64,000 bases of DNA, from contig CAIIXF020000001.1 of NCBI GenBank assembly GCA_903813345.2, positions 1,612,001 through 1,676,000 of the forward strand. Direction: 5' to 3'. Below are positions 271 to 24,895 of the stretch, in pieces. The notes under the pieces are model-generated. The model was not told the origin of the DNA. It did no database searches and saw nothing but the letters and a program-made list of their open reading frames with translations. This DNA comes from Owenia fusiformis. Lineage: Eukaryota; Annelida; Polychaeta; Sabellida; Oweniidae. A program made the translations under genes and the position numbers. The stretch's first letter is position 1, and each line of letters begins with the position of its first letter.

Positions 271-384
271 CTATGCCTTGACTGTCTCTGGAAGACACTT
301 GGCTGAGAAATGTTCAGACTTTGCCCAAGCTTATTACAACTTCAGTTCTGTAAGAGGAATACCTAAAATACCAGAAGCATCAAG
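271..384 (+). CDS. MUS81-like: MUS81-like exon: end of winged-helix domain
   Basis: After an acceptor at 269-270, the exon reads YALTVSGRHLAEKCSDFAQ and continues to a donor at 385. The Y-x-L-T-x-x-G-x-x-L-A-x-K pattern is the end of the winged helix that precedes the nuclease core in MUS81 (human form YSLTxxGxxLAxKL, from memory). It ends in phase 2; the AG is completed by T817 to give serine, which fixes the next acceptor at 815-816. Upstream exons are outside the window; 1-270 is intron with nothing else seen. Confidence 0.7.
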
Positions 385-3300
385 GTAAGTACATACATGT
401 ATTTTATATTCTTGTATTCTAGTCATGATTACTGTGTGTATTATAGTTACCAACTAACACTACCTGCAGTAGGAAGTTAAGAATAGTATCCTATCCTATC
501 TTAGGAAATAAATCATACAAATGTAGGGCTACACCATGCCCAATAACAGAAAATAGGCAATTGGCTGTACAATGCATGAAAGAATTGTTATATATGCAGG
601 TTTACATTCCCTCATACTAGGGCTCATAGGGAGATGTTGTTTGAATCTCATAATGATAGCTATCCATTGTGTCGCATGTAGGCATTAATTCAAGTGCATT
701 ATACTATAGTATATATGTAAATGAAAATAACATAACAACTTGTATGCCTTAAGATCTGTGTTGTATGTGTCTTGCTTTAATGCACCTACCTATGTTTATG
801 GTTGGCTATATTTTAGTACTCAGATAGGTGCAGAAAGGCTGTGTTTGGTGATAGATTCACAAGAGAAAGAGAGGGAGAGGCTGATAGGGTTTGCTAGACA
901 GAGGGGAATTGTCACAAAAGTGCGAGAGCTACCTGCTGGCGACTATGTGTGGCTTCTGCTGCCCCCTGGTGCTGATGGGAGCCAGGATATACCTAGTAAT
1001 AGAGAAATGGTAGGCACCTACTTGTATCACCCTTGGTATACGCAGCTAACGAAAATTGACCGGTACGGGTCAAAAGCTGGACCGGTACGGGTTAACGGTT
1101 TTATTTGAATTTAAAATAGCCATAACTTGCTCAATATTGACTTCCTTGTGTCTAATTTGAAATATATGATGCCTCCCGATGCTTTTAAGTACCCCAATTT
1201 TTACAGATTTGTAAACGGACCAAAACTCTCTAAATGCGCATTTTTGCTCTTTTCTCTCGAGAACGACTGTCTCATTTTCACGATAACTTTTATTTAGTAC
1301 TTCTAACATATAAGATCTATTTTTCCCCATCAAGGTATGATGTAAATGACATGCTATTTACATCTTGTGAGTTTCAATGACGCGCGTTTGATTTTATAAA
1401 AAATGCCAAACTTTGTGACAAAGAATTTCATCCTGCTTGCAGCGAGAAGACGGACCGGTTCGGGGCAATCTGCTTGCAGCGAGAAGACGGACCGGTTCGG
1501 GGCAATAGCTGATGAAATTCTTTGTCACAAAGTTTGGCATTTTTTATAAAATTAAACGCGCATCATTGAAACTCACAAGATGTAAATAGCATGTCATTTA
1601 CATCATACCTTGATGGGGAAAAATAGATCTTAGAAGTACTAAATAAAAGTTATCGTGAAAATGAGACAGTCGTTCTCAAGAGAAAAGAGTATAAATGCGC
1701 ATTTAGAGAGTTTTGGTCCGTTTAAAAATCTGTAAAAAATTGGGGTACTTAAAAGCATCGGGAGGCATCATATATTTCAAATTAGACACGAGGAAGTCAA
1801 TATTGAGCAAGTTATGGCTGTTTTAAATTCAAATAAAACCGTTAACCCGTACCGGTCAATTTTCGTTAGCTGCGTATACCAAGGGTGTGTATGGAAGACA
1901 TTGTTGAGCTTATCTGTCTGGTTCCATAAATCCACCATCCCTTTATTTACAATGTCAGTTCATTGAAATATTGATCCCTAGGATAAACATTGAAGTCGTG
2001 TGTTTCATTTCCAAAAAAATTAAGATACTTTTACATTACTAATTTACTGCATTATACAGTACATGTATCTAAAAACGAATGTGCACTTAATTGAAAAAAA
2101 TATTCATTGAAAATTGAAGTTGCCAAAAATCTAAATTCTTACAAATTGCAAGGTCACTTAAAATTAACTTTATGGAAATTGTGAAATGTTTCACCCTGAA
2201 CACTTTATGTCTGATACATCCCTTTGGAGGGATCTGTGTTCGTTCCATTCAATTTGTATCCATTCAGTTTGTTGAATTATTAGATGCTGCCTTACATTGT
2301 GGAGAGGAAGTCCTGGGATGACCTCTTTGACAGTATGAGAACATCACGCTTTGACAAGCAGATTGTCAAAATGCAGGTAAGCATAGCAAGATCCCAAAAT
2401 GCAACCTTTAATTTTGGAAATAAAATTCAACCGCAGTAAAACCTTTAATTTTCCTGTATAGAAACATTAGTAGTGTACCATGGAGCAAACAATTGTATAT
2501 TTACTTATCTTTGTATTTGTGCAATAAAAAGAACACTGAAACTCAATTTCAAATTATTTAGATGCTTTCCTCAAGGCTCCTGAAACATTACATACCTGTA
2601 TATAACTTAAAAGGTTAAAATGAGTTCATTGAGAATTTGTTTCAGTTTGACAAGAGAGATTACTCACATGCTAATTAATTTACAAACATATTTTTCAGAG
2701 GTGTGGCCTGAAGAACATATTCTACCTTCTAGAGGGATCCATCAATGATACAAAAAGTAAACTGACTGATGAAAAGAAAACACAAATAAAGGTTTGCTGC
2801 TACTAACAATCTTAAAGGAATATTCCTTGGCAGACCCTTTCTCTCTTGATATGGTAGCTATAATCATATATATAGTTTCCATATTTAGGAAAACATGGGA
2901 AAATGTTTTAATATGGTCAATATTGATCATTTAAAAATCTAGTGCTTATTTCCAGTGAGCTGCCATCTTTTAAGATTTCTTGCAGGAAGTGATGTCATCA
3001 ACTCTCAACTTCTATAACCTTGCCCATAACAGTATAGGAAAGTAGCACAAAATCACTTCTAGGCAAGTGATCATTACTTTCTGTGCAAAAATATTTTCAG
3101 GGCTTGTCAACTTAGAATAAAAGAAGATATTTTCAGAATGATTAAATAAGATACAAAGTTGAAAAAGAATATTTGGCTGGTTTTGTAATTCTTAATAGCT
3201 CCTCACCTAATGCTATATGCAAAGTTGAGAGTCGATGACATCACTTCCTGTGTGAAATTTTAAAAGATGGCAGCTTACTGGAATTGAGCATCACATTTCT

Positions 3301-6300
3301 AAGTGATCAAATTTGACCATATCAAAACATTTTTGCGTGTTTTGCTAAACATGGCAAGCATATATATGGTTATAGCTACCATATGAGGAGAGAGATGGTT
3401 TGGCAAGGAATATTCCTTTAAGTATGAACCAATTAAAAACACTGAACTTTCAAACTAATAAAAATCTTAAGAATAAACAAATTAAGAAATATTGAACTTT
3501 ACAATCTTTAGCATTGGTGAGTGCTAATACATGTACAGTAGTTAAATACAGAAAAATATGATGTGCAACCATAGTGCACAAGTACATATTCACTTTAATA
3601 CAAAATAACAAATCAAAACAAAGCATTTATAGCTAAATTATGAGAAATCAAAGAGAAATCAAAGAAAGTCTAGATTTAAATATTTAATTATACCACCGAA
3701 TGAGGTGAGAGGGGGATATAATGAAGCCGTCCATCTGTCCATTTGTCTGTCCATTCGTGTGTCCTTGCGATGGCTCAAATACCAGTTGACGGATTTTATT
3801 CAAATTTTATAAGCTTAGGCCTTATGGGTGTAAAACCTCTGCTCGAGATGGAATTTTCAATATGGCTGCTCAATTCAAAATGGCCATCATTTTCATGAGA
3901 AATTTAAGCTTTGATAATTCATATACTATATTCAAATTTGAAGAATTTTGATCAAACTTTATTTGCTGATTCCTAGGGACATTAAGGAGCTTTGCTTAAG
4001 AATAAATTTTCAAGATGGCCGCAGAACTTCAAAATGGCCACCCTTTTTTGTAAGAAAAATGTAATCTTTGAAACCCAAATACCAGTGGATGGATTTGGTT
4101 CAATTTTCATATGCTGATGCCTAGGTACACAAGAGCTCTGCTCATGAAGACATTTTCAAGATGGCCACTGCATTTGAAAATGGCAGCTATTTTTCATAAA
4201 ATGTAATCTTTGATTACATTGGATCAGAAAATTCAAAATGGCTGCCTAGAGTTGAAATTCTCTATTACTCAGATATCTCTTCATACAAGGCATTAACATG
4301 ACAAAATGTCACCACTTCGTTCCTCAAATCTGAAATCTAAAGTCAGATTTGAAATTCTGAGAACTTGTAGATGGTTTTTAAAAAAAATTGGTCAATATCC
4401 CAGATGAGAGTGGAAATAATCTTGATTTACGTCATTAAAAATTCCGTCAAACTGATGTCATATTTGGAATCTACATGTAAAATTACATTTAGAAATGTGG
4501 TTTTGAAAAGAGTTGATCAACTTTGAATATTTAATTTTCTTTGAAAATGTTACTTCTAGGTCGGGGAGATTCCCCATAGACCCCATTTTGTTGTAAAACC
4601 ACAAAAAGTGAAAAAAAAATTTTCTTGTGTTGGGCAGATAATATTTTCTTTTACTGGACATATTTTAATTTGTATAACTATCAGATACATAAGGGTAATA
4701 TGAAAAGTGAACCACTAAAACTGATCCATATTCAAGTTTAAGGGAATTTTGTAATACCCTGCCATGTTAATTCCCCCGAATCAGCCACCTGGTGACGAAA
4801 CTGGTAACTACCTTCTCGCATCTGAGTAATTAGAAGCAAGTTAAAAAAAGACCTTTTTGACCTTGAGAAGGTCAAATCTAAAGTAAGATTTTAACTTCTG
4901 AAAATTTGTAGATCATTTAGGAAGACATTGTTGGATTATTCCATTGGAGAACTGTTATGGATTATTGAAATGCTTCTTGATCTGTAACCTTGTCAAGGAT
5001 CATCAAGGATATTTATCAACATTGAGAGATCATTGATTGGACATAAGTATGACAACATATTTTATATATCTCATTTAGTTTTTTCAAAATATAGGTACAT
5101 TGTTATATTTTAATTGCTGTTTTTACTTTCCTTTTTCCATTATTATTGAAGGTAACAGAATCTATTGCAATTCTAAACTGAATAATATGTGTATTGTATG
5201 ACCCAGTAGTAACATCTGCATGCAAGCTTTCTTAATTTATGTTTAAATGTCACATTTAACATTTTTCTCCTCTAGTGGATTTCATGATGCATGTCTTTTG
5301 TGAAAATGTTTTAGAACAAACATCACATTTGAAGTTCTTTCCTCAAGTATGAATTCTATAATGTGTGTTAAAGGAAGATTTATGCATAAATGTTTTAGAA
5401 CAAACATCACATTTGAAGTTCTTTTCTCCAGTATGAATTCTATAATGTGAGCTAAGATATGACTTTCTTGAAAATGTTTTAGAACAAACATCACATTTGA
5501 AGTTCTTTTCTCCAGTATGAATTCTATAGTGTAAGTTAAGAGTATCCTTTCGTCTAAATGTTTTAGAACAAACAGCGCATTTGAAGTCCTTTTCTCCGGT
5601 ATGAATTTTATAATGTAAGTTAAGAGATGACTTTTCTGTAAATGTTTTGGAACAATCATCACATTTGAATTTCTTTTCTCCAGTATGAATTCTATAATGT
5701 ATGACGAGAGAAGATTTATGCCTAAAGGTTTTAGAACAAACACCACATTTGAAGTTCTTTTCTCCAGTGTGAATTCTATAATGTCTGCTAAGATGTGACT
5801 TTCTCAAAAATGTTTTAGAACATACATCACATTTAAAGTTCTTTTCTGCAGTATGAATTCTATAATGTTGGTTAAGAATTGGCTTTCTTGAAAATGTTTT
5901 AGAACAAACATCACATTTGAAGTTCCTTTCTCCAGTATGAATTACATAATGAGCGTTAAGAGATGACTTTCTTGAAAATGTTTTAGAACAAACATCACAT
6001 TTGAAGTTCTTTTCTCAAGTATGAATTCTATAATGTTTGTTGAGAGAAGATTTATGCATAAATGTTTTAGAACAAACATCACATTTGAAGTTCTTTTCTC
6101 CAGTATGAATTCTATAATGTGAGCTAAGATTTGACTTCCTTGAAAATGTTTTAGAGCAAACATCACAATTAAAGTTCTTTTCTCCAGTATGAATTCTATA
6201 ATGTTCGTTAAGCTGTGACTTTCTTGAAAATGTTTTAGAACAAATATCACATTTGAAGTTCTTTTCTCCAGAATGAATTCTATAGTATAAGTTAAGAGAA

Positions 6301-9300
6301 GCTTTTTGTGTAAATGTTTTAGAACAAATCTTGCATTTGAAGTTTTTTTCTCCAGTATGGATTCTATAATGTTCCACTAGTACACACTTCCATTTACACA
6401 CTCTATGGCATATATCACAAATATGTGTTCCTTTGTGGCCATTTCCTCGTGCCTTAAGACCAGTAGTAATGATTTTACCACTAGAAGTATCAGCATTCAT
6501 CAAAGAAGTAGAACTATTTGTCATACTTTTGGCAGTATTTATCCCATCAACATTGATTATCACGCCATCAGCATAATTTATTACACTTTTGGGATGATGT
6601 ATCATTACACTAGCATTATTTTTCATAAAACCAGCATCATTTATCACACCATCAGTGTTAGTGACCTTGCTACCATAGTCCATGATGTTTTCCATAGTAA
6701 TGTTGAATTTGCATTAATTAATTCCCTGGTCTTGTGTATGCCTCAGTTCCTGAATAAAGTACATGTATATGCATTTATTCAATGATGGTGAACCTTCTAG
6801 CAATCTCAGATAGTCCCTGATATAAATCCTTTAGTGTTATGCTGTATGGTGTGGATTTCATGTTTCACATTCATGTCACTCTATTATTGGGTTTCTTGTC
6901 CAAAGAGTCATTTTCTGTTCGATTCAAAATAGCATTTTCCGGTCTAATAGAGTCAAATAAACATTGTAGACCTTTCTGTCATGTGTCATACTTTTTTCAG
7001 AATATTTTAGAACAGCATCATTGAATAGTAAATAGCAGTCTTTTCTTGGTCTTATTTGAAACACTTGTTTGGGTCGTATTGTACCACTGTATTATTCTCA
7101 TACACATAATCAATTGTAAGTTTATCTGCTTACAGATTGTCACTGTTACTCTACTTACTATATTTACTCTAGTAGGCTCATGATAAGCTTAGATATAGAT
7201 TGGATAAGTCCAATTTGTTTGGCTGTAATGAAGATTGTACAGCACCATCCAAGTACAACACATTATGTGATTTGATAGGTTATCATGTATATAAACATGG
7301 CTAATGAGGGTCTTTCTAATTCTTTATTATCCCATTGAACAAAGTTGGGTGCTATAGAGAACGGCTCCATATGTATGTCTGTACATCTGTACGTCCTTAC
7401 ATCCATCTGTTTGGGCAATAACTCAACTACCATTGACTCCATATTGTTTATAATTTATATGTCCCATGTGAGTTCAAGCTCTACTCGAAAGCCAATTTTC
7501 AAAACGGCTGCCAGTTGGCCAACATTTCAGTGTCAAGTTTACAGTTTTTAGTGCAACAAATAAAACTGTAATATAGATATATTTTGAGTGAAAAAAATAT
7601 ATAGGATTTTGAACATTTTTATGTGTGCTATTTTAGGTTGTTGCTACAACTGGAAAAGTTTGGACCGATTTTGTTGGAATTTATATGTGAATACTAAGAA
7701 GCATATTAGACTTTCTAATTTCACTTTGGCTGGAAAGCAGCCATTTTGAAAAAAAGATGCCATTTTTATGTTTGTTATTTTACATTTTTTGCTATAACTG
7801 AAAAACAGTGGAGGAAATTTGTTGGAATTTTATATGTGCATATTGCACTGCTGTCTAATGACAATTAGGCTAATTGGCAGCCATTTCCACAAATGGCAGT
7901 CATGGCTGTTTGATAGGATTCACTACGCCTTGGTGTTGCTGTTATCTAGTTAATTTTTTTTTATTTGCAAACCTGGAAAAATTTGGATGTGCCATTTCAT
8001 TTAATAAAATACAATATATTATTAACATAAAGTCTCATGCTGTTTTATTTAAGACCAGGATCCAAAAGCTGCAATTTGAGGAAGACATATTTGTGAATTA
8101 CACAGCATCTTGGCTGAAAACGGTCCAGTGGCTTGTCCAGATCACTTCCCTTATAGCAGATGCATACAGATCAGGTGTGTATTCAGGAAATTAATTCCAA
8201 AATTAAAGATATAATATATTTTCTTGATAAGGATTACCATTTATAATGAATAATTCATAACCTTTGGAAAATTCTACCTCCTCTTAAGGAACTTAAGGAA
8301 TCTTGAAATTAGTCTGGGATTTTTTAAAAGAATTTCTTATTTTTTAGTATAAGACCATCTCTCTTTGAATGAATTTTCAAAGCGTCTACAGTACATGTAT
8401 GTTCAAATAAGTATTAATATTCAAGTGATATATTTCACATGGACATTTAGTTGTTTCAAGACCCTGGACCCCCCCCCCTCTTTCCTCTTTTATCATGTAA
8501 TGTGTTAAAGTAGATAAGAGGGGTCCACAGCCTTGAATCAAGACTAATGAACATTGTATTCAGTAAATCTAGGCTATATCTTCCTCCTTTCAAAGGACAA
8601 GTCTCAGTTCGGAGAACAGTCTCCTGGGCAAAAAATTATTTTTATGAAAATATAGAAATATCACCAAAATTAAATTATGAATATTCAAAAGAGAACATTT
8701 AAATCGATAAGATGTATAAATATCACAATTGCCCTCGGCAGGGATAACTGTGCAATAGACCGATTCAATAGAATACAAGTCTTGATTTGATGAAAAAAGT
8801 TCATCAGTGTACTGCGCTAATAATTTTTTTATGAAAAATCTAGAAATATCACCCAAAGTAAATTATAACTCTATTCAAAAGAAGACATTCAAATCTATAT
8901 TATGTAAAAAAATCAAATTTGTCTGAAGCAGGGATAATGCTCAATGAGACCAATGAACTTCGTTCTCCAAACCGAGAATAGTCCTTTAATGTAACAATGA
9001 CTATCATGATTCCAAAATATTTCCCTTTTAGGCATGGACACCCATGATAGGTTGATGAGCTATGCAGAGTTCTGTGAGAGAGTACAACATGGGGATAAAA
9101 GACACAGGGACAGGAGACCAAGGGAATATCATACTTGGCCAGCTGGTTTCTTTGTAGACTTGTTGTTCAGGTGAGGATCAAAAGTGTTATTTAATCTTAC
9201 AATTTACACACAGGGTGAAAACATTAAAGGTGCAACAATTAGTGCAGGAGGGCCATTCAACAATCATCGACTAGTGTCAAAATGTATTTAAGTTTGGATA

Positions 9301-12300: not shown

Positions 12301-15300
12301 TTTTCTTTTCGTTTCTCTAAAATCAGATTATTCTCATAAAATTCATACAAAGTTGGGCCTAAGCCTCTATTTTCGTATTCTGCATGTTAAGATATTTATA
12401 ATGTAAAACCTAAGAGATAAATTCAATGTCTTCAGTTGAGAATAAGTATAAGGTAAATGTGTGAATTCTGCTTGTTGTTGCACTATTTTTATAATAAACA
12501 AGGTTCGATACGCAACACTGAATAGACTGCAGTCATAGCTTAGTTGTAAAGAAAACAAAAGAAGTTGGGACGTGGTCATGCTTGAATACGATTTTAGATA
12601 TATCGCCGTTTACACTTGTTGAAATCGGCCTGTATTAATTTCAACAGGTGATCGGTGTACAAGGGCATATATTTGAGTTATTGGTTTAATGATAAGTATG
12701 ACCTATGAGTGGGTAATGTTTTACAAATGCATGAAACAAATACTCCAATGGCCTAATCTCAATTTTCCTGCATAAACTATTACATTGAAATGATGGTCAT
12801 TTGCTCTCTAACTTCCGCACTGCATACGTAACTTCGTAACAATTCAATAAGCCAAGACAGGACCGCTATAATCGCTACATGCCAGTGAAAGAAGATGTTA
12901 AGCCAAATTGACCTGATAGCTCAGAAAAAATAAAAATTTTCGACTTTTCTTTCTACAGTCCTTGTTGCCCCTTTAAGGCTGAAACATTAAGGCTGAGAAC
13001 ATTATTGCCACAATTCAGTATATTTGCATTCAGTCAATTTGTCAAACATTATTGCCACAATTTAGTATATTAGCATTCAGTCACTTGTCAAACATTATTG
13101 CCACAATTCAGTATATTGGCATTCAGTCAATTGCCCAATAGGCAACCAGTTTTTCCAAGTTCATTGGTAAGAGTGTAAAGTGATTACCATTGGCAGCCAG
13201 GTTGCCGTGAGTTTTTAACCTTGTTTATATATAAAATAACTACAAACCAGGGGTATAGACAGGAACTAAAATTAGAGGAGGTTAAATTAATTAGTGAGGC
13301 TTAGTGCTAAATGAAGATTATCACTACCTTTGAATTGTTAACACAATTTAAGTTGGAATTCCTGTTAAATTTCTTTAAGATTTTGAGTTAGGTTTCTCAT
13401 CTACATGTACATGTACGACGTAGCTCATGCCTTGCTAGTGGCTACACCCATGTACACTTATCATAGTCCTTTTATGAATGTAGTTTACAGGATAAAATAT
13501 ATTAAGTCATACATTTACTTCATACATTTCTTTTAGAGATAACCATGGTGGTGGTGCTATGATGCAGACTGTGAAGACTGAGCTGGGAATACAAGGGAAA
13601 TATGGCCCTAGAAAGCACCTGCTTGTTATACAGGGACTAGAGGATTACAATAAGGTATATATAGAGTACATATTAATGAATACTAAATAGTTTGTAATTG
13701 ATATAAATCAGTGGTTATGAAATAACTCTAAAAAACTGAATTCACTAGGGCAGAGCATTTGTACTGAAAGGAGCGTTTTCAGTACAAATATGTACTGAAA
13801 AATGTACTAGTTTTGTTTCAGTACAAATTTAAGTATATTTTTGTACTGAAAAATGCACTGAATTTTTTTCAGTATATTTTTCAGTACAAATTCATGTACT
13901 GAAAAATATACTGAATTTTAAGTACAAATTGTATATTTTTCAGTACAAATTGAAGTATAAATATGTACTGAAAAATGTACTGAATTTTAAGGACAAATTT
14001 AAGTGCAAAAATATACTGAAAAATGCACTGAAAATTTAAGGATAAATTTAAGTACAAATATATACTGAAAAATGTACTGAAATTTAAGTGCAAAAGTCAG
14101 TATAAAAATGTACTGAAAAATATACTGAAATTTAAGGATAATTTTAAGTATAAATATATGCAATGAGAAATATTTGTGCCCAATAATGGAAATAAGAGAA
14201 AACGTAAATGTAAGGCATACTTTATAAACTCTAAATCACTCAAAAAGTTCTTCGAATGGTGAAAAAGTGCATGATTTTAAAAGAATTTTTGGCGGGGGGG
14301 GGTTCGCTTGGACCCCTGAAACCCCCCCCCCCCCCCAACAGGAATGCTATTACATTATGAAATTATTTTGGATGCTTCCTTTACAGCATCCTTTATTGTT
14401 GTATTGTATTTTGTTTACCACCAATGAAGGTGAGCAATACCTCTTGGCTATGCCCCGTATATATACGATCGTAATTTACGTAATTAACATGGAAGATAGA
14501 CCCAGAAACCCCTCCTTGAAGGAGCCCTGTGTTCTTTTATGTGCACTTATACATAGACATACAAGTACACACCACAGCCTTTTGTACGAGTTGCGGACCA
14601 CTCAGTCAAACACCCTGAAGTACTTCACGCAAACAAGCAAATTTAGTCTTGCCTGAACCGGGGATCGAATCCGGGACCTATTGCGTAAGAGGTACCTGCG
14701 CTACCGCTGAGCTACACGGGTGGACTTAAAAGAGTCTCTCTGTAATCAGGTTTGTTTTGCCTTGTCAAAATATTTTGTTTTGTTGGTGGATTAATAAAGT
14801 TTCTTTAGACACATCCTTTATAAAAGCAGACTCTAATCAAACTGGAGAGGCTAGGTTTACTGTAATCAAGTGATTTCCTTTTTAGAAGTTATGTTGATGG
14901 ATTTATTAAAAACGGCCTAAATCACTCAAAAAGTTCTTAGAATGGTGAAAAAGTGCATGATTTTAAAATAATTTTTGACCGGGGGGGGGGGGGTTCGCTT
15001 GGACCCCTGAACCCCCCCCCCCCCCCCCCCCCCCCAGGAATGCTATTACATTATGAAATTATTTTGGATGCTTCCTTTACAGCAGCCTTTAACCAAACTT
15101 AAAAGAGTCTCTCTGTTATCAGGTTTGTTCTGCCTTGTCAAAATATTTTGTTTTGTTAATGGATGAATAAAGTTTCTTTAGACACATCCTTTAAAGCAGA
15201 CTCTAATCAAACTGGAGAGGCTAGGTTTACTGTAATCAAGTGTTTTCCTTTTAATAAGTTATGTTTTTGGATTTAATTATTTAAGACGCATCCTGTATAA

Positions 15301-18300
15301 ATTTCTTTTTAGCCCGATCAAACCTATCAAATATAATGCACATATAAGGGTTATGTACTGGGAGGTTTTGGATACCCATATTTCCTGAGGGATAAACCTT
15401 TTATTTAAAACTGATCGTACATAACATGTGTATTCCATACCTTTTGAGGTTTCTAGATACATTCTACCTTATTAAGTTCTAAAATTCAAAAACATTAAAG
15501 GTACATATTTTCTCAGTCTTAAAAATAAGATTTTCATGAGATTTTCACTCATATTGCTTGAGCAAATTAATTAATTGATATCAAAATTAAAATATATAAC
15601 ATGAACATAGAACCTCATTTGTTCGAGTAAAGCAAAATCCATGGTATAGATGTCAAAGTCAGGAAGATGTCGTAATTCAAAATCTAAGTATATTTTTCAG
15701 TATAAATTTACACTTAAATATGCCCTTAAATTTCAGTATATTTTTCAGTACATATTTGCACTTAAAATCACACTTAAATTTCAGTATATTTTTAAGTACA
15801 TATTTGCACTTAAAATCACACTTAAAATTCAGTATATTTATCAGTATAGATACGAGGGGTGATCCAAAAGTCTTGGACGCCCCACTCTAACTTTGCTATT
15901 TTCTAATATAATTACATGAAACTTTCAGATAATAAAGATCAACATCTAAACAACTTTGTGTATAAGTTTCAACAGAAACTAATATATTTTAGCTACTTTT
16001 CTAAATATTTTTTTTTTGATACCGGGTCCCTGCCACCCGGAACGGTATTTAAATATTGCAAATCACGTCACAACTGTTATAATGTGGCAAATACTTTAGG
16101 TGCAGGTGCACAACCTAACACCAGTCATGATATGGGAGAATTTCCAATTTTCAGTCTGAGTGTCATCTGCCATGATCATCTTCACATATTAAGACCTACT
16201 TTTCAACATATTTTCCACGAATTTGAACACATTTTTCATACCGCTTTACCAATGAATGAAAGACATTTATGAAACGGCCATTGCCTTTGTGATACAAATG
16301 CTGCTGGAGTGCCACTCTAAACCTCATCCAATGAGTAAAAAACATTTTCTTTCAACCCTCCTTTCAACTTGGAGAAAAGGAAGAAAATCACACAAAGCCA
16401 TATCTAGACTGTATCGTGCATATAGTAGTTGCTCAATGTCAAATATAGTGAAAATATATTGTAGTATTCTTTGTTCCACTTTGATTTCTTTCATGTTCTG
16501 CATTTCAGCAGCCATCTTGGAGCAAAAATGACACCAGAATGAGGGTTGATTGTCTGATGTCATTTTCTTAGAACTTGACATATACGGCCATTGCCATATG
16601 TGACATTATTATTAAAAAACAATTAATTGGTTGCCTAGTAACAAAGGAAGTAAACTAACATGGTTTAACATTCAAAATTTAAGGAAAGAAAGTGGTCAAG
16701 ACTTGCAAAACAAGTCAAATAGCGGCAACGTTTAAGGCTGAAAGTTGCCATGTGCGAATACCAGTGATCTCCCCAGGATTTTTTCTCAGGTGGGTGCAAA
16801 ATTCTTATTTTTACGATTCAAACCAAAATTGGTCAAAATATGCCAATTTTTCATGATTTTTCTCATTATCAAGTGGGTGCAAATGGATTTTCAGGTGGGT
16901 GCAAGCCTATTTTCAAAATCTCAGGTGGGTGCTGCACCCACTTGCTATAATGCTGGGGAGATCACTGAATACCGTTCCGGTTGGCAGGGTCACTATATAA
17001 ATAACTATCTAGAAAACTACATAAAATATATCAGTTCACCATGAAATTAATACACAATGTAGTTAGGTTGTTGGTCTTTATTATTGGAAACTTTAAAGTG
17101 ATTTTAGCAAAAATCAACAAAATTAGAGCAGGGCGTCCAAGACTTTTGGATCACCCCTCGTATATACTGAAAAATGTACTTTAAATTTCAGTACATTTTT
17201 CAGTACATATTTATACTGAAATTTGCACTGAAATTTTAAGTATATTTTTCAGTACATATTTATACTGAAAAATATACTTAAAAATTCAGTACATTTTTCA
17301 GTACATATTTGTACTGAAAACGCTCCTTTCAGTACAAATGCTCTGCCCTAGTGATTGTACCACACAAAGATTGCTTCTCAGACCCCACATTTTACAATTA
17401 CAATTAACAATTACAATTACAATTTACAATTACAATTACAATTTTTTACAATTCCAAATTTTGTCTGCATCCATCCAAACTTTTCTAAGACTTAATTGTG
17501 ATGGCACTAAGAAGCAAAAGATTTCTAAAATCAACATGTTGGACAAACTAATTAATACACTAGTACTGTAAACATTTAATCAATAGAGAATCTATTCAAG
17601 AATAACAATATTACACATTTTGTAGTTTAACAGTTATGACATATTGCATTTGTAATCATAGCAGATCACTGTACTTGTTGGAATCTGATATAACAACAGA
17701 GGATAAAAGCTTATTGACATGATATACTGTTCAGTATAAATGGTAAAATACAATCTGTGTGCAGCATAACAATCACATTAAAACAGTAACTTAATGCAAA
17801 TGTTGTCCTATAATATAATAAATTATACAAGGAATATTATTTAGGTTAATTTCGATTGCAGTGTCGACAGCGTTACATTGACAAGGCTCTGAGTGATTTC
17901 AGCAACAATAAAGGTGGCAGTGTGGTTGACATCGTGAACGACCAGCTAGGCCCTCTGGTGGCAGATTTGGTGCACTATGATGTGACATCATTTTGGCAGT
18001 TACACATCCAGGTATAGTGAGGAATTTGGGTGATTTACATGTACATAATACATATTTATATTAGATTGTAGTTATGTGTCACCATCATATTGTCATAGCC
18101 ATTGATCTTTTTGGCTACCACTGATGTCCAGCTTTGACATCTGTAACACTTGTTACACATTTGTAATTGTAACCAGGTGGTTTTCTTATTGTCATGTTAG
18201 TTTTGCCATCCCCAAGAATTGATGACATATTGTTATGACAACTGTGCTCACCTTAACACATGTATCCAAGTGTCGCCATAAATAGGTAGTGACATATTGA

Positions 18301-21300
18301 TACAGCCACCATTTTTCATGACTGGCAGTTGGTATCCGTAACAAATTGTTACATCTATGCAACTATTTGTAGTAACTTACTAGATGGTGGTATTGGGTCA
18401 TGTTAATGCCTTGTCACTTATAATGATATTGTTCCCGTTTACTATATGTTAATCCCATGTTATGTCAGCTGCATTATCTCAAATATGTCCATATTACATG
18501 TATCATGTGTTATCATGTATTTCTAGGTTTGTGTTGGTGTTGTTATACAGAGAACTGAGAAACCCCAGGAGGCAACAGACATTCAGGAACAGTTTATGCA
18601 GGGCCCAGGTACAAAACCACCATATCCAAATACCCTTCAATATATATCAAGTGAACCGTAATGTACATTTAGTCAACTTATCTACTTAAGGCTTTCGTGA
18701 TTATTGAATTGAAGACATACAATCAGAGTGATTGGCTGTTATTTTCCTATCCAGTATACAATGTATGTACATCCTATACAATTTAATCTTATGAATTTCC
18801 AGGTGATCATCCTGATGACCATATGCCAAGACAGCAAAACCTTAACAATTATGTAAGACCTCCTCCCACACCCCAGTCCGCTGCCAATAGTACACAGCCT
18901 GTCAAACCTGCCTCAAGGCACAAGTCTCCAACTCTCCCAACCCAAGCCCCACAAGTGCACACTCTACCCTCCACATCTAATGCCACCATTACAACTGCTG
19001 ATATAGGACAAATACAAGGTGTCCAAGAATCCCTTAACAATACAGTTGAAATACAGGGTGGTCAAGAATCTCAAGATGATGATCTTAGAAAAGCTATAGA
19101 ATTAAGCTTAAGACAAAGCCAAAATAGTTGTAATGTTAGAGCAGATGGACTAGGTCCAGTATCTTCCAATAGTGCCAATAAGTATAGTGCAAATGCATCA
19201 GAAGCAAAAGGTGCAACAGATGAAGGTCAACTCTCTGAAGAGGAACAGTTAAAAAGGGTTTTAGAATTAAGTAGGATTGAAACCGCAATGAACAGTGATC
19301 TAGTCAATGACTCTGATTATGCCTCTAAACTTGACAGAGGTCATGTAACCAATGCAAAAGCTATATATAAAGATGAGGCAAGACCAACACCATGCAAAAC
19401 ATTAGACAGAAATGAAAACCATGTGCCATATAGAGGAACAACATATTACACTGATGAAGTCCTTATTAGTAAAGCACCAGGTGCAAGAACTACAACTAAA
19501 CCAACAGCCGTTGATGAAGAGGAGGAGGAGATATTCAGAAGAGCTTTAGAATCTCTTGATAAACCAAAGATCAAGGAAGAACCAGTTGAGACCACCACTA
19601 CTGCAGAACCAATAGGAGCCAATAATGATGTTGAGTTTAAGAAGGCTCTTGAAGTAAGTCTTTTGGAAAGTCAAATTAAAAATGAGCCAATAGATTCAAG
19701 TGAGCAGTCTTGTCATCCTGTCAGACCACAGCAAAGACTTTCAAACATTGTTCATAACAGAATGGACATTACAAGCGATCATTTGAAAAGTAATCCTTCT
19801 GCAAGCAATGTCCATGTTATTAAAGAAGAAAAGATGGATAATGCCCACCCTGAGGATGATGATCTGAAAAAGGCTTTACAATTGAGTCTTATTGAAAGCC
19901 AGTTTGAGAAAGATCCAATTATAGCTCAACAATATTCGCCAGTTTGTTCCTCAATAGACACTAGGTCAGGTGACAGCTATGAGCCAATACTGAACAAGGA
20001 ATTATTCTCAATATCTGATGATCCAAATGTACAACATGACTTAGAGAAAAGTTTTCATGAAGATGAAAACAAAGTTGCCAAAAAAGGAGGAAACTCTAAG
20101 AAAAGACCTAGTCCAGATAGTGAACCACATGCCCCAACTAAAATCCAGAAACTGTATGATACACCAATTCAGAATCTAAGTGAAGAGGAACAGTTCAGAC
20201 TTGCCATGGAGGAAAGTATGAAAGAACCAGTGCCAAAAACTCAACTATATAAATCTGATATCCATGCTCCACCAAATGCCCCGAAATCAAGAGCTCAAGG
20301 TGTTCTGTCAGATGAGGAATATGCGAGAAAGCTGCAAGAAGAGCTTAACCAAACATCACCAAACAATAATGCTGATAAAGATGCAATCCTAGCTAGAAGA
20401 CTAAGTCTCAGCCAAGACCCAGTACAATATAAGCAATACATAGAAGATGCTAAGCTTGCTGTGAAACTAGAGGCAGGTGATATAGATATAATAGATGTAC
20501 CTGTTGATACCTTTGGGCCCCCAGGGGCTAGGGCTTTCAGTACACCATCTAAAGCCACATCTAGAAGGAAGGCAACAGTCATGAAACAGCCATCCAGAAC
20601 TGCATTAGGGAGCCCTATTGTGCATGTACCAGATACAGACAGCCAGGTAAGTATTCCATTGTACTCATGTTAGCATCAAGTCAAGTGTGTACTCGTCAGG
20701 TGTACCTGTATTTATTCTGCTTCATTCAAATATTACTATTTTTGGCGAAAGGAGTCTGCAAAGGTGCCCCAAAAGCAGTGAATGAAGAAATATAATCGGA
20801 TTAGCTAATTAAGCAAATCCACCTAATTAAGCTAATTAGGCAACTTTAATTAGCCTATAATAGCTTATTCCTTAAAGTAAGTCATATAAATGGTAAATTC
20901 TTAACATACTTACATAAATTGCTGATCAGTTGTTATTTCATACTAAACCTAATGAGGTGATAGGGGCTGGGTAGGTGGGTTTTTGCAATGCAGCTGACTG
21001 TTTGCTGGCTCTAGCTAGTCTAACTGAAGTTCTAACATAATTCAGTGCCTCTGTTCTGATGCCTTCATCACAAATTACCTATAAATCTACATTTTGGCTT
21101 CTAATTGGTATACTGCAAGAACATTCAAGCATGTATAAACTCTGCATATTGTAAGCTTAATTAACTAAAGGTCAGCATGGGGAAATAAAACTTAAAGGAC
21201 CTGTCCAACCTTATATGCCACCCTAAGCAAAACAAGCTTAAGCTTTACGGCACCAATTTCAAACACCTTTTCAATGCTTCCTTTTCAATTATTTCATAAT

Positions 21301-24300
21301 TTTCATGTGCAGATGCTAATAGAATAATTTGCTGTGAAGCATGATGTACTGAAAGCGTAAACCTTAATATTGATTTACAGTCAGGTTATAACAAGATAAA
21401 GTCTAATATTTTCAGTTAGCAGAATACAGACGCTTGCAGCAGATGAAACACAGTGGGAAGACTGCCAACATTTCTGGCCATCCCAGTCCTCGTAGTCCAC
21501 ATGTAAATGGGCCACATACACCTAAGGGGGCAAAATCTGTACCGACTGCTACATATACTCCTATGTCTAAGCAGGTTAGCTCCTCGTCTACCTCGACATA
21601 CATCCCTACGGCTGATAGGTCCATAAAACAACATGGCCGTATTCAACCTGGAACCCCTAACTTAGCCAAGCAATTGACAGGTTTGTGAATTGTTTGGAAA
21701 TATCTATGAGTTTTGAGGTAGAAGAGGGAACTCCCTCACCAAAACTTTACATATTTTGACTTGTCTCAACTATTATGTCACCACTATTATGTCACCACTA
21801 TGAAATGATGACATATTGTCATACCATACTTTTTTATCAAATCGTTACACTTTTGTAAACATTTACAGCTGAAGACATCATGTCATGTGTACTCATAGTG
21901 TCAATTTGCCTCACCTATTTTGGGATTCTGGCAATGCCCCTTGTGTCTTGATAAAGTAAAACAACAGAAATGAAAAATTGATTTATTAAATGTACATTGA
22001 AGTACTTGATGATGAAAAGGCCTTACAATTGCAACTTACAAATACATGTACCTTACAAATGCAACTATTCGTGCAGAAATTGTCTGGGATGATTTCTTTT
22101 CTTACAAAACTCAATATTACAATCAGTTTATTTATGACTGATGTTTACTTTTGTAGCAAAGGTACTCTATTGTCTGGTTAATTAAATTTTAATCTACATG
22201 GTATTTAAAAGAAACAATTTAATTTAAGATTCATGACTTATTTTATGAGCAGCATTACAGGAAATTGATATTGCATTTTTATGTTTAGAAAAGGAAATAA
22301 TCAATTAGAAAGTTGTTACTGTACAAATTGTTCAATTTAGTTGAACATGATATTTATACACTGATTAATTGCATACAAAGTGCAGAACTTTTATTATTCA
22401 ATTTATTTTTTATAAATCAATTTTTCAAGTTTGACCCACTTGTGTTTATAAAGTGTGTCTCAAATAAACTTTATGATTCAATCCCAGTGATTCAATTAGA
22501 TATCTCAAGATATATCCCCCTCCCCCTTCTCACCTTAATGAGCTATACTTCAGTTTTCATGTAATTTATAGGTGTGGTCCCACAAGCTGTAGTCAGTCCA
22601 AGAGTGCACTCCAACCCTGCTGTAACCCACAGGCCAGCCAGCCATACTCAACATGTAGCAGACCAACATATTGTGCACCCATTTAATAACACTCCCATCA
22701 TACCAAACCCTGACCTAACCCTGACCAATAATCCACTATCAAGCAAACATGATACAATTACGAAGGAGTTTCCTAATCCAAAATTAGCTTCTGGGGTCAA
22801 TCAAGGAACAGTGGCTCAGGTTCATGGAGAGAACACAGACCAAGGTTTTGCATCATCTCCATGCAAATATCAAGCAGAGGTTAAAGGTCATCAGGGGGTC
22901 AAGGTCAAAGATGAAGTTGTCATTATAGATAGTGATAGTGATGATGACCTACCACCAAGTGGAGTTGTGAAGCCAGGCAGCTTCAATCCTAAAGTGGGTA
23001 CAAAACAAGGTACGCTTTAAACGATTTATTTTCTCATAAGCTTCTAATGTATATTCATGTTATTTCTCATTGAATCATTTAATTTTCAATTAAAATTATT
23101 TCTTTTTGTTATTTAATTAATTGATTTGACTTTCATTTTTCATATTGCTTGCACCTTTGCATTTTGAATGTTGAGAAATCCAAAATATGTAAATGAAATG
23201 TCAGTTTTTTGTGATAATTTGTTTTGAGCTTGGAAGATGTTTTTTCTCCTAACCATTGATGTATCTCAGGTGGCACATTCACACATGGAGCAGAGCCACA
23301 CCAGTCCAACATCAAGTGTGGCAACTGTGGCAGACTGGGACACACAAGGACATCCAGTAGATGTCCTCATTACTACTCACAAGAAGAACATGATCGCAGA
23401 GAGGTGAGATATCCATAATTGCATAAAGGGCCACTGTAAAACCCATGTAACTGAAATGCCCTTGGTTCCACTAAAATGTGATCTACTTACGAGGGTAGAA
23501 TGACATTAAGTCAACTTTGGAGTGGTTCACTTATATTATACTGTAAGTTATAGAGGTTTGATTAACAACAGAAAATATGTTCACATGGTAACAAATCAGT
23601 TGATGAAGCATGCATTGGAACAATGTATAATAATATATTACAGTGTGGACACTATCAAACAGTATTGTCTAATCACAAGCAATGATACCTGGATAAAATC
23701 CTCACGCGGTCCTAACTTCGACCGTTAATTTGAATTTTTGACCTACCAGATGCTCGAAAATCAGGGATTGCGAGTTTCATACTGCACCGTTTTTCTTCAA
23801 ACTTATACCATTAAAAGCAAAACAAAATTGCCTTTCTGTCGGTGCATTACTTTATTGTAAAGAGTCCCTCGTTCTAGCAGCGTTTTGGTCCCCGGCTGTT
23901 AGAAGGCCTTCTTACACCTGGGGACCAAAATGCCGATGGAAGGGACTCTGTTTAGGAGAATAATGTACCAACAGAAATGGATTTTTGTTATGCTTTGAAT
24001 GGAACAAGTTTGAAGAAAAACGGTGCAGTATGAGACTCATAATCCTTGATTTTCAAACATCCGGTAGGCCAAAATTTCAAATTAACAGTCGAAGTTAACA
24101 CCGCGTGATCCTGCACATTCTATTTCCTATGCAATTTTGCTAAATAATTGATTCTTATTGTGTTTTCAATAGGCCAAGAAAGCTAAAGCAAGAGAGAAGA
24201 GAGAAGCTGCAGAGAGGGAAGATCAGCGCCTCCTTGATAATCTTGTAAGCAACACATATGACACATATGAAATATATTCACAAGTCTCTGGTTTTCTGTT

Positions 24301-24895
24301 AGATTGAAATTAGTAGAGGATGTGAATCTGTAAGGGGGAGACACCGAGGAGTATTTCAAAACAAGAAACGATTAGTCATAAAAAAGCGAACCTCTATTAT
24401 CCAAACTATGATCTTATGTAAAAAGAAACAATGTTAACCACAAAACCACCCCCCCCCCCGCCCCTTTCCACCATACATCATTCATAAATTAATTTCATAA
24501 TGAAGGTGGTACTCCTATATATCAATAATAACAATGCAGAAGCTTTTCTCGTCAGACCAAATACACAGCAACATGAGTTTGCTTGAATAAATTATTGACA
24601 ATGATACATCATCCATATACCAAACTTACCCTACTCCTACAGAACTACTGTAGTGTTTTCAAAATTACTCTGAACTTTTATTTTCTGTTTCCAGCAACGT
24701 AAGCATGATCGAACGCAGGAGTTGATTGAACAGCAGGAGAGAGAGAAACGCCTTAAACAACAACAAGCGCTGAATGCTGTGAATGCAGTCTTTGAAACTC
24801 AGATTGAGCCAGTCGTCGCTCAGAATCAGGAATACGAGGCAATGATCGCAGCCTTGGAGAACAAGCAGAGAAAGAATGCCCGAAAGAAAAAATAA
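271..24895 (+). CDS. MUS81-like: MUS81-like structure-specific endonuclease with EME1-like region, UIM array and zinc knuckle (5' partial)
   Basis: Fifteen exons join in frame through GT-AG introns: 271-384, 817-1009, 2284-2376, 2699-2791, 8054-8174, 9032-9170, 13537-13654, 17862-18011, 18527-18608, 18803-20646, 21416-21680, 22572-23009, 23270-23403, 24173-24244, 24695-24895. They give 1351 visible residues; the N-terminus lies outside the window. Seen in order: winged-helix tail, ERCC4 nuclease core, a region resembling EME1, about six UIMs, psi-K-x-E sites, a SIM, a CX2CX4HX6C knuckle and a charged helical C-terminus. MUS81 cleaves branched DNA (replication forks, recombination intermediates) in the nucleus as a heterodimer with EME1/EME2. 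The usual C-terminal tandem helix-hairpin-helix is not recognisable. Family assignment is firm; the fusion reading is inference. Introns carry many transposons, but no exon is broken. Confidence 0.88.
817..2791 (+). CDS. MUS81-like: MUS81-like exons 2-4: ERCC4 catalytic core
   Basis: Exons 817-1009, 2284-2376 and 2699-2791 join in phase 0. Visible residues 46-54 give strand LCLVIDSQE, the D-x-x-E site. The core continues with RELPAGDYVW, then PYIVERKSWDDL (residues 105-116), matching the family's GDxxW and V-E-R-K-x-x-D-D metal-site motifs. Next come TSRFDKQIVKMQRCGLKNIF and YLLEG, matching the MUS81 block GRFxEQxxRLxRCGLxxxxYLVE. All metal-binding acidic residues and the ERK triad are present, so an active nuclease is expected. 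The residue after D-x is Q rather than the XPF-type R; MUS81 also deviates there. Confidence 0.9.
1028..1887. mobile_element. Foldback transposon (long TIR), 5-bp target duplication
   Basis: An 860-bp near-palindrome: the left end cacccttggtatacgcagc and the right end are reverse complements, with arms of about 400 bp (1028-1433 and 1512-1887). The unpaired centre holds two tandem copies of a ~38-bp unit containing gacggaccggttcgggg. Flanks TGTAT at 1023-1027 and 1888-1892 form a target-site duplication. It sits in intron 2 of the MUS81-like gene, 18 bp after the exon 2 donor. It has no coding capacity; the superfamily is not assigned. Confidence 0.9.
2812..3421. mobile_element. Foldback MITE with TTAA target duplication
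   Basis: Terminal inverted repeats start ttaaaggaatattccttgg and end with its complement. Long imperfect arms share ggaagtgatgtcatca and agatggcagct blocks. TTAA at 2812-2815 and 3418-3421 fits piggyBac- or Kolobok-type insertion. It lies in intron 4 of the MUS81-like gene, only 20 bp from the exon 4 donor. Confidence 0.85.
3690..4990. repeat. Dispersed repeat fragments in intron 4
   Basis: A stretch with repeated gtccatctgtccatttgtc and several 'caaaatggcc' motifs (3690-4260) is followed by gcattaacatgacaaaatgtc at 4290. Copies of the units that form the array at 54613-56040 follow at 4330-4400 and 4830-4930. A block at 4405-4540 (cttgatttacgtcat) recurs at 10100-10230. No coding signal; old transposon fragments. 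Confidence 0.65.
5256..6695 (-). pseudogene. Intronless C2H2 zinc-finger gene, interrupted by two in-frame TGA codons
   Basis: Read from ATG at 6695, 226 residues lead to TGA at 6015-6017; the same frame continues to TGA at 5343-5345 and ends at TAA 5256-5258. A low-complexity N-terminus (about 90 residues) is followed by Kruppel-type fingers joined by HTGEKNFKC linkers. Five fingers precede the first stop (finger 2 has Y for its first His), eight lie between the stops, and a broken one follows. Both stops replace the G of an HTGEK linker (GGA to TGA). It lies antisense in MUS81-like intron 4 and lacks introns, which suggests a retrocopy or a young lineage-specific ZNF. The five-finger protein before the first stop could still be made (DNA-binding, nuclear). 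Gene or pseudogene status is uncertain. Confidence 0.75.
6700..8053. repeat. Rest of intron 4: dispersed repeat, copy A
   Basis: About 7321-7960 is homologous to about 47650-48485. Shared blocks are a start with 'ttattatcccat', 'aaaacggctgccag', 'aaaactgtaatat', 'gcagccatt' and an end with 'gttgctgttatctagtt'. It is non-coding. Nothing recognised in 6700-7320 or 7960-8053. Confidence 0.6.
8054..9170 (+). CDS. MUS81-like: MUS81-like exons 5-6: end of nuclease domain and linker
   Basis: Exon 8054-8174 starts after the acceptor aag and runs TRIQKLQFEEDIFVNYTASW, then a helix ending in LIADAYRSG. This matches the last strand and helix of the MUS81 nuclease fold (xxRTxxxxESxxYLxxLTxxLxxxYxG). Exon 9032-9170 is joined in phase 1. 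It encodes a charged segment with KRHRDRRPREYHTWPAGFF that I cannot place in MUS81; in MUS81 the helix-hairpin-helix pair would follow here. Confidence 0.8.
8592..8987. mobile_element. Short inverted-repeat element with internal duplication
   Basis: Ends aaaggacaagtctcagttc and its complement (…gagaatagtccttt) mark a ~396-bp element. Inside, a ~190-bp block occurs twice in direct order (8636-8730 and 8820-8945, each with 'gaaatatcacc' and 'gcagggataa'). It lies in intron 5, 45 bp before the exon 6 acceptor. Confidence 0.65.
10435..10492 (+). promoter_or_regulatory. Promoter-like cluster: NRF1-like site, TATA box and splice-donor match
   Basis: TGCGCAGGCGCA (10435-10446) resembles the palindromic NRF1 site, and TATATAAA follows at 10457-10464. 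About 30 bp downstream, cagaggtaagc offers a strong donor. The order resembles a core promoter with a short first exon inside intron 6. No downstream exon is identified, and the 5' flank is a dispersed repeat, so it may be a transposon promoter. Confidence 0.3.
11109..11253. repeat. Near-perfect 145-bp hairpin
   Basis: Arms of about 60 bases (catcctatgatttactcgtg… and …cataaatcataggatatcc) pair with few mismatches around a loop tctctcgctacgctcatgc. It is compact with no obvious target duplication; a MITE or hairpin-type element. Confidence 0.7.
11355..12190. repeat. Hairpin-forming repeat family and A-rich filler
   Basis: 12034-12182 folds back on itself (gatacaggaaatatacttgg… pairs with …atattccctgtatcc; inner stem gatatacaatacatcttccc). 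Diverged relatives with 'cggtcagtttggatacggg' lie at 11375-11540 and 15330-15475. Between 11600 and 11945 the sequence is almost only A-runs with short tt/gg breaks. Confidence 0.6.
12998..13130. repeat. Tandem repeat, three copies of about 56 bp
   Basis: Each unit contains aacattattgccacaat, 'agtatatt' and 'gcattcagtca'. Copies are about 90% alike. Non-coding. Confidence 0.85.
13537..18608 (+). CDS. MUS81-like: MUS81-like exons 7-9: region resembling EME1/Mms4
   Basis: Exons 13537-13654, 17862-18011 and 18527-18608 join in frame. The segment KHLLVIQGLEDYNKCRQRY (visible residues 277-295) is followed by an acidic helical stretch. Next comes LVADLVHYDVTSFWQLHIQV (near 322-341, W335), then IQRTEKP. 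By eye this follows the EME1 block 'V-I-x-G-L-x-x-x-x-x-x-x-N', the short 'a-L-x-x-L-Q' region and 'T-x-x-W-I-x-x-F-T-x-x-I-S-x-x-P', the pseudo-nuclease half that pairs with MUS81. I infer a nuclease and partner-like domain on one chain. The similarity is weak in places; a profile search would decide it. Confidence 0.5.
14231..15274. repeat. Direct duplication inside the CACTA element
   Basis: Unit A (14231-14905, interrupted) and unit B (14917-15274) share 'ctaaatcactcaaaaagttc', 'gaatgctattacattatgaa', 'aagagtctctctgt' and 'gcagactctaatcaaactgg'. Each has a G-run and a C-run (ggggggg ttcgcttggacccctga ccccccc) of differing length. Unit A differs mainly by a SINE insertion. Confidence 0.85.
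14397..14724 (-). mobile_element. tRNA-derived SINE
   Basis: On the minus strand, from 14724 down, the head carries a box A (TAGCTCAGCGG, 14704-14714) and a box B-like GGATTCGATCC (14662-14672) at tRNA spacing. The acceptor stem does not close, so it is not a working tRNA. A ~240-bp body follows and ends in an A-rich tail (aaacaaaatacaatacaaca) near 14400. The paralogous unit B lacks the insert, which confirms the boundaries. Confidence 0.75.
15853..17160 (-). mobile_element. Degenerate mariner (Tc1/mariner) element
   Basis: Inverted ends cgaggggtgatccaaaagtc and the complement at 17132-17160 are flanked by TA (15851-15852 and 17161-17162). The length of 1308 bp is typical of mariner. A minus-strand transposase remnant confirms the family. 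The element sits in the right part of the CACTA transposon. A further inverted pair, 'taccg…ctgccacccggaacggtatt' (16020-16048) and 'aataccgttccgg…' (16968-16983), and a 'caggtgggtgca' repeat block (16764-16975) suggest later insertions. Confidence 0.85.
16196..16581 (-). pseudogene. Mariner transposase C-terminal remnant
   Basis: The minus strand encodes YARYSLDMALCDFLPFLQVE, a decayed form of mariner 'HxPYSPDLAPCDFxLFPxLK' that carries the last catalytic Asp. After a frame change it reads VKRYEKCVQIRGKYVEK and TAG (16196-16198), matching the usual C-terminus 'KRxxKCIxxxGxYFEK'. Frameshifts and stops make it non-functional. Confidence 0.85.
17392..17450. repeat. (TACAAT)n microsatellite
   Basis: About nine imperfect copies of tacaat / tacaatt right of the CACTA element. 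The rest of intron 7, 17451-17861, shows nothing else. Confidence 0.9.
18060..18440. repeat. Degenerate 'gacatattgt' / 'tgttacat' repeats, intron 8
   Basis: Diverged units with 'tgacatattgttatgaca', 'aacaaattgttacat' and 'tgtcaccat' recur in intron 11 (about 21776-21960, 'gatgacatattgtcatacca'). They look like remnants of one inverted-repeat family. Intron 10 (20647-21415) contains nothing I can name. Confidence 0.45.
18803..20646 (+). CDS. MUS81-like: MUS81-like exon 10: array of ubiquitin-interacting motifs
   Basis: This 1844-nt exon encodes a mostly disordered region. UIM candidates are DDDLRKAIELSLRQSQ (about 19075-19122), EEEQLKRVLELSRIE (about 19233-19280), EEEIFRRALESL (about 19519, degenerate), DVEFKKALEVSLLESQ (about 19627), DDDLKKALQLSLIESQ (about 19855) and EEEQFRLAMEESMKE (about 20178). 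Four fit acidic-Phi-x-x-A-x-x-x-S well; the second has V for A and the third lacks S. A related helix, DEEYARKLQEEL, lies near 20310. psi-K-x-E SUMO acceptor patterns IKEE, IKNE and IKEE sit between UIMs. A bipartite basic patch (KKGGNSKKRPSP) near 20080 may be a nuclear signal. Confidence 0.85.
22572..23009 (+). CDS. MUS81-like: MUS81-like exon 12 with SUMO-interacting motif
   Basis: Phase-1 exon after acceptor tttatag. It encodes a low-complexity Pro/Asn/His-rich region ending in KDEVVIIDSDSDDDLPP (about 22907-22957). The core V-V-I-I-D-S-D-S-D-D-D is a textbook SUMO-interacting motif: a hydrophobic strand followed by an acidic, phosphorylatable tail. The preceding exon 21416-21680 encodes a Ser/Thr/Pro/His-rich linker with several S/T-P sites and no recognised domain. 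Confidence 0.8.
23270..23403 (+). CDS. MUS81-like: MUS81-like exon 13: TAF1-type CCHC zinc knuckle
   Basis: Visible residues 1231-1250 read IKCGNCGRLGHTRTSSRCPH, that is CX2CX4HX6C (C1233, C1236, H1241, C1248), followed by YY. Spacing and sequence match the zinc knuckle of TAF1 (CGACGxxGHxRTNxxCPxYY, from memory), a small zinc fold for nucleic-acid or protein contacts. I know of no such knuckle in canonical MUS81 or EME1. Confidence 0.85.
23699..24111. mobile_element. Foldback MITE, intron 13
   Basis: Left sequence cacgcggtcctaacttcgac and the right end pair over arms of about 180 bases (…gtgcagtatgagactc… against gagtttcatactgcaccg). The centre is gtccccggctgttagaaggc. Non-coding. Confidence 0.8.
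24173..24895 (+). CDS. MUS81-like: MUS81-like exons 14-15: charged helical C-terminus and stop
   Basis: Exons 24173-24244 and 24695-24895 encode a Lys/Arg/Glu/Gln-rich helix, probably coiled coil (AKKAKAREKREAAEREDQRL and QEREKRLKQQQALNAVNAVF). It ends in NKQRKNARKKK and TAA at 24893-24895. The basic tail may add nuclear targeting or DNA contact. The reading frame is continuous with the zinc-knuckle exon in phase 0. Confidence 0.85.

Follow-up and report, generated by a model that had tools for sequence, protein, structure and literature searches.

Can both halves of a MUS81-EME1 nuclease be carried on one polypeptide? MUS81 activity normally depends on a separate partner and on cell-cycle-controlled scaffolds, with EME1, EME2 or Mms4 as the non-catalytic partner. 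The question is raised by a MUS81-like gene on the plus strand at 271-24895 of the window, by which we mean the whole 64,000-nucleotide stretch of DNA analysed here (positions 1612001-1676000 of C1, in a genome of 498 Mb whose gene content looks animal-like). A preliminary description of this gene had proposed a MUS81-type nuclease core followed by an EME1-like half, and the sequence blocks it quoted, as well as a 4.2-kb intron (13655-17861), were all found in place. Fifteen modelled exons join into a single 1,351-residue frame that is still open on the 5′ side and ends with TAA at 24893-24895, and all 14 modelled introns are GT-AG. With exons 10-15 as training set, a codon measure gave each of exons 1-9 a higher score than the average open segment outside the exons; out of 400 segments, 28, 7, 76, 20, 61, 35, 5, 22 and 4 scored as high as or higher than exons 1 to 9, respectively, so that this measure by itself gives little support to exons 3 and 5. 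Further along the window, on the minus strand, five open frames between 26254 and 45260 match the organic anion transporter OATP; they include two N-terminal-side and two C-terminal pieces, and at least two gene copies are therefore probable. A 297-aa frame at 52461-53354 (minus) has a weak interleukin-17 match (20.5 bits, cut-off 24, E 0.00063).

The nuclease core is of MUS81 type, as had been proposed. The ERCC4 nuclease domain begins in exon 2 (817-1009), which carries GDYVW and residues D51, E54 and GD79-80; exon 3 (2284-2376) supplies the catalytic ERK109-111 and D115 within VERKSWDD, exon 4 (2699-2791) continues the domain (RCGLKNIFYLLEG), and exon 5 (8054-8174) contains its end. The Pfam ERCC4 match (PF02732, E 3e-24) spans aa 50-193 and stops at about position 8140. 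A PDB sequence search with E up to 1 listed five matches, four of them MUS81 chains with E from 9.9e-12 to 7.6e-11 and the fifth an unrelated protein with E 0.51. D51, E54, G79, D80, E109, R110, K111 and D115 were invariant in an alignment of the MUS81-like protein with the MUS81 of its own genome, human MUS81 and an XPF-like exon of the same genome, and the nuclease site therefore looks active.

The MUS81 character extends to the N-terminal side. Exon 1 (271-384) codes for the end of a winged helix of MUS81 type (YALTVSGRHLAEKC), and three further winged-helix exons, W1-W3, were modelled upstream of the window (L003 7566-7650, 8527-8627 and 9099-9183; phase joins checked by hand). When W3 plus exon 1 was compared with the own-genome MUS81 winged helix, none of 2000 shuffles aligned as well, and for W1 against own-genome MUS81 2 of 2000 did; the two genes also agree in the codon and phase of the modelled winged-helix intron before YALT/YSIT. 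The Pfam model of the MUS81 winged helix (PF21136) gave the MUS81-like gene 14 bits, under the 27-bit cut-off, versus 103 bits for own-genome MUS81. No convincing match to an N-terminal HhH domain was found in the 20 kb upstream, and the gene may start further upstream than this. The upstream region also contains an exact tandem duplication of about 6 kb (L004-L003, about C1:1597300-1609400; period 6,015 bp), in which 11 of 28 segments, each 500 bases long, are identical throughout and which is either very recent or an assembly artefact; a mariner-type transposase-like frame (by eye) lies within it.

Separate genes for both subunits are present elsewhere in the genome. The own-genome MUS81 on C8 matches the winged helix, ERCC4 (107 bits) and, in part, the (HhH)2 domain (PF21292, 41.5 bits). 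The own-genome EME1 on C9 comprises two (HhH)2 exons above the Pfam cut-off plus exons for an ERCC4-like second half; the C9 stretch examined did not yield its first half. Because separate MUS81 and EME1 genes exist, the MUS81-like gene is an additional gene. The EME1 exons are adjoined by a long LINE reverse transcriptase-like frame (L024 about 115-2550, minus; by eye).

What follows the ERCC4 domain is harder to classify. Exon 6 (9032-9170) encodes a MUS81-like linker, LMSYAEF (aa 212-218), after which the EME1-like stretch begins with PAGFFVDLL (aa 241-249). The second block (aa 205-368) continues through exon 7 (13537-13654), which contains LLVIQGLEDY and whose last residues are QGLEDYNK (aa 283-290), and exon 8 (17862-18011; QRYIDKALSDF to TSFWQLHIQ), and ends in exon 9 (18527-18608; VCVGVVIQRTEKPQEATDIQEQF), which supplies the V next to TSFWQLHIQ. 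The block had no match in Pfam with E up to 10 (a sub-piece gave one DUF, E 0.19), none in NCBIfam, where two weak matches fall on the nuclease part, and a single irrelevant match among PDB sequences (E 1.3). These negatives are not decisive, since even the second half of the bona fide own-genome EME1 misses the ERCC4 cut-off, at 16.6 bits. Two AlphaFold models made without an alignment had mean pLDDT of 39.0 and 41.4, the ERCC4 part of the first being mostly below 50; with values so low even on a known domain, no fold was read from either model. A genome search with the second block gave four matches, all inside the window. In a separate genome search, a weak match on C44 (E 0.56) was set aside, its frame resembling LINE ORF2 by eye.

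Two readings of the second block were weighed. One holds that a genuine EME1 ERCC4-like half, though truncated, was fused after the nuclease and would form an intramolecular pseudo-heterodimer with it; we regard this as possible, if on balance unlikely. The other, to which we give the same tentative standing, sees in it a degenerate form of the C-terminal (HhH)2 domain, standing where a MUS81 paralogue normally has this domain, with no EME1 half at all. The most favourable result for the first came from a semi-global alignment to a profile of the EME1 second half (human EME1, a version with the 2ziv loop, part of EME2 and own-genome EME1): in this set-up, the best of several and chosen afterwards, and with the EME1 resemblance resting on one query sequence, the score was 43 versus a shuffle mean of 14 (z 4.5), and 8 of 5000 shuffles scored as well or better. 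Thirty decoy segments, including the second block reversed and pieces of the tail of the MUS81-like gene, reached at most z 2.48 in the same test. The block is also collinear with EME1, PAGFFVDLL corresponding to PLAAFIDMV, QGLEDYNK to QGLEKYFK and QLHIQ to the following EME1 helix, and exon 7 (118 nt) stops in the same codon as its own-genome EME1 counterpart (122 nt by count), the two ends differing by 1 nt.

Other tests separated the two readings less clearly, and many pairwise settings did not reach significance (counts are shuffles as good or better, for aa 205-368 unless stated). HMMER gave nearly the same result for the EME1 profile (247/5000, with 3,766 shuffles reported) and for the MUS81 C-terminus profile (233/5000, with 2,318 reported), borderline for the former and no advantage for the latter, and the EME1 profile run on the whole chain did not pick out the block. 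In pairwise comparisons with BLOSUM62 and BLOSUM45, respectively, the counts per 1000 were 160 and 91 for human EME1, 149 and 234 for its second half, 48 and 35 for 2ziv EME1, 159 and 262 for the own-genome EME1 pieces, and 128 and 484 for own-genome MUS81. When aa 237-368 were used, the corresponding pairs were 149 and 48, 113 and 152, 45 and 22, 156 and 212, and 62 and 278. In a further series (local BLOSUM62, local BLOSUM45 and global BLOSUM62, per 1000), 2ziv-type EME1 gave 2, 1 and 2, which favours the fusion, while human EME1 (194, 145 and 253) does not; own-genome EME1 gave 202, 32 and 602, the human MUS81 C-terminus 389, 255 and 897, and the human MUS81 nuclease 835, 718 and 879. The own-genome MUS81 C-terminus gave 9 and 36 in the two local tests, in favour of a degenerate (HhH)2 domain, and 545 in the global one. 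With profiles (BLOSUM62 local and semi-global, then BLOSUM45 local and semi-global, per 200), the full EME1 profile gave 4, 1, 5 and 0, own-genome plus 2ziv-type EME1 30, 8, 33 and 0, and own-genome EME1 alone 101, 137, 7 and 5, the first two of these counting against the fusion. The MUS81 ERCC4 second half gave 105, 170, 118 and 196. The MUS81 C-terminus, at 48, 120, 105 and 145 and at 781 of 1000 in a separate profile test, speaks against the (HhH)2 reading.

That reading draws further on local features: LMSYAEF precedes the block as LMTFTEF precedes (HhH)2 in own-genome MUS81, KHLLVIQGL matches KHLMMIHGL of the same protein, and, by eye, NDQLGP is similar to RNLGP in the C-terminus of MUS81. 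It is weakened by the spacing between LMSYAEF and the putative hairpin, about 66 residues versus about 26 (by count), and by the EME1-MUS81_C (HhH)2 model (PF21292), which has no match in the whole chain, the second block or exons 11-15 and which even the incomplete own-genome MUS81 C-terminus reaches with the score given above; a strongly degenerate (HhH)2 domain may nevertheless be present. The same missing match weighs against the fusion, as does the EME1 first half, which was not detected in the chain: with the human sequence as query, 976 and 901 of 1000 shuffles were as good. Simple splice filters yielded no candidate exon of at least 20 aa in intron 5, and several candidate exons for a hidden first half in introns 6 and 7 were rejected, none being EME1-like by eye.

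We conclude that the second block appears to resemble the second half of EME1 and that a fusion is possible and unproven, involving at most half of one EME1 domain. The EME1-like half put forward in the preliminary description has the collinear motifs, the matching exon end and the semi-global alignment in its favour; the missing family or PDB match and the borderline HMMER result count against it. With the EME1 first half and (HhH)2 not detected, the protein is not a complete MUS81-EME1 heterodimer in a single chain, and to call it a single-chain version of the heterodimer was an overstatement also because the two subunits have separate genes in the genome.

Whether the nuclease and what follows it belong to one gene bears on every reading. 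The long introns can be explained by inserted elements and are no argument for dividing the gene. Most of intron 7 is occupied by a transposon-like insertion of about 3.6 kb (13742-17354, strand not assigned) bounded by 67-nt perfect inverted repeats (13742-13808 and 17288-17354); satellite-like repeats lie inside it, a second inverted-repeat element is nested at 15847-17166 with arms 78% complementary, and the transposon label is inferred. A separate gene beginning after this 4.2-kb intron is accordingly not favoured. Intron 2 holds a MITE-like foldback element of about 860 bp (1028-1887) with four arm pairs 93-98% complementary. In intron 4 of the nuclease gene lies a C2H2 zinc-finger array split over several open frames (5282-6713, minus), apparently an intronless zinc-finger gene that is broken.

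A break between exons 9 and 10 would leave an ordinary MUS81-like nuclease beside a separate gene for the C-terminal region, wrongly joined in our model. Exons 10-15 do stay open when read alone, in a frame that contains an internal methionine, and with intron 9 retained the nuclease frame would meet TAA at 18659-18661. We nevertheless consider two genes improbable: the GT-AG joins are in phase throughout, and exons 9 and 10 are 194 bp apart, with no AATAAA or ATTAAA in that gap or between exons 8 and 9, so that one gene is the simplest reading.

The tail encoded by exons 10-15 comprises about 980 residues. The preliminary description covered neither this tail nor the extension of the gene beyond the 5′ border of the window. 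Exon 10 (18803-20646) carries ubiquitin-interacting motifs (UIMs): with the Pfam UIM model (PF02809) the protein as a whole scored 34.2 bits (cut-off 21, E 1.7e-08), and four stretches passed E 1 individually. The best stretch is aa 718-730 (about 19852-19899, plus strand), and three further putative UIMs with the AxxxS pattern lie on the same strand at about 19075-19122, 19627-19674 and 20185-20232. The same exon contains QQNLNNYV, which we take to be a near-PIP motif. Exon 11 (21416-21680) is rich in Ser/Thr/Pro, and exon 12 (22572-23009) includes VVIIDSDSDDD (22916-22948), presumably a SUMO-interaction-like motif; such short SUMO- and PIP-like motifs could be due to chance. Exon 13 (23270-23403) encodes a zinc knuckle, CGNCGRLGHTRTSSRC (23317-23364), that matches zf-CCHC_6 at 32.3 bits (cut-off 22, E 9.4e-08); its nearest other genomic match is an exon on C2 (E 0.013) that looks like TAF1 by eye and that we take to be TAF1-like. 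The protein ends with exon 14 (24173-24244), charged and coiled-coil-like by eye, and exon 15 (24695-24895), which encodes a charged C-terminus and the stop codon. From its sequence the tail would be a ubiquitin receptor, and it looks built for ubiquitin, perhaps also SUMO, tags.

A decaying, functionless MUS81 duplicate would be in keeping with the transposon-rich introns and with the divergent sequence, the nuclease domain being 29% identical to MUS81. Yet the gene as modelled keeps 1,351 open codons with canonical splice sites, its catalytic residues are retained and its tail has UIM and zinc-knuckle matches, and we consider decay highly improbable.

The reading we prefer, with a probability of roughly 55%, is that the gene encodes an additional, diverged MUS81 paralogue that works as a ubiquitin/SUMO-recruited nuclease, perhaps with an EME1-like remnant. 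The sequence itself shows the modelled gene structure, the ERCC4 identity, the intact catalytic residues, the UIM and knuckle matches and the separate MUS81 and EME1 genes; we infer that the gene is transcribed as a single unit, that its product is an active nuclease and is recruited, and what the second block does. The ERCC4 domain, with its complete catalytic centre, is predicted to cut branched DNA such as flaps, forks and nicked junctions, and the UIMs, possibly with the SUMO-like motif, would direct it to chromatin or repair factors that carry ubiquitin or SUMO marks. Recruitment of this kind has parallels: ubiquitin-binding domains are reported to localise SLX4, and ubiquitinated FANCD2/FANCI to recruit FAN1 (PMC4075355, PMC4402529). 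In place of (HhH)2, the paralogue would carry a block most resembling the C-terminal half of the inactive ERCC4-like domain of EME1, which may pack on the nuclease domain in cis, or on a partner, as a non-catalytic half. Without (HhH)2, the protein would have to bind DNA through its winged helix, its zinc knuckle or a partner, for example the separate EME1.

With UIMs of its own, such a MUS81 paralogue would tie junction cutting directly to ubiquitin signalling. Neither a MUS81-UIM protein nor a single-chain MUS81-EME1 protein was among the matches listed in open-licence literature, and a MUS81 paralogue with a ubiquitin-reading tail would be new as far as those matches reach. In one scan of viral contigs for relatives, seven stretches fitted the pattern and none was a relative. 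The more far-reaching proposition, a natural single polypeptide that joins an active MUS81-type ERCC4 domain, a truncated EME1-type half in cis and a ubiquitin/SUMO-reading tail with a knuckle, alongside an ordinary two-gene MUS81-EME1, is in our judgement possible but rather unlikely. If the EME1-like half is real, a single chain can carry both halves of the heterodimer, and EME1 can do without its (HhH)2 and its first half in that setting.

Compared with known systems, the protein is closest to MUS81, with which it shares the winged helix (by pairwise test), the ERCC4 domain with its catalytic residues and the LM(S/T)(Y/F)xEF linker; it differs in having no detectable (HhH)2 and in carrying the second block and the long UIM/SUMO-like/knuckle tail. 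The second block loosely, and with modest statistics, follows the second half of the ERCC4-like domain of EME1/EME2/Mms4, whereas the first half and (HhH)2 of EME1 have no counterpart found in the protein. Like TAF1 with its type of zinc knuckle, it has a C-terminal CCHC knuckle of zf-CCHC_6, but Pfam reports no other TAF1 domain in it. FAN1 and SLX4 are UBZ-containing crosslink-repair proteins, and we liken the MUS81-like protein to them by working only, as a repair nuclease or scaffold guided by a ubiquitin-binding module, with no claim of homology; unlike them, it has UIMs in place of UBZ and bears an ERCC4 nuclease on the same chain.
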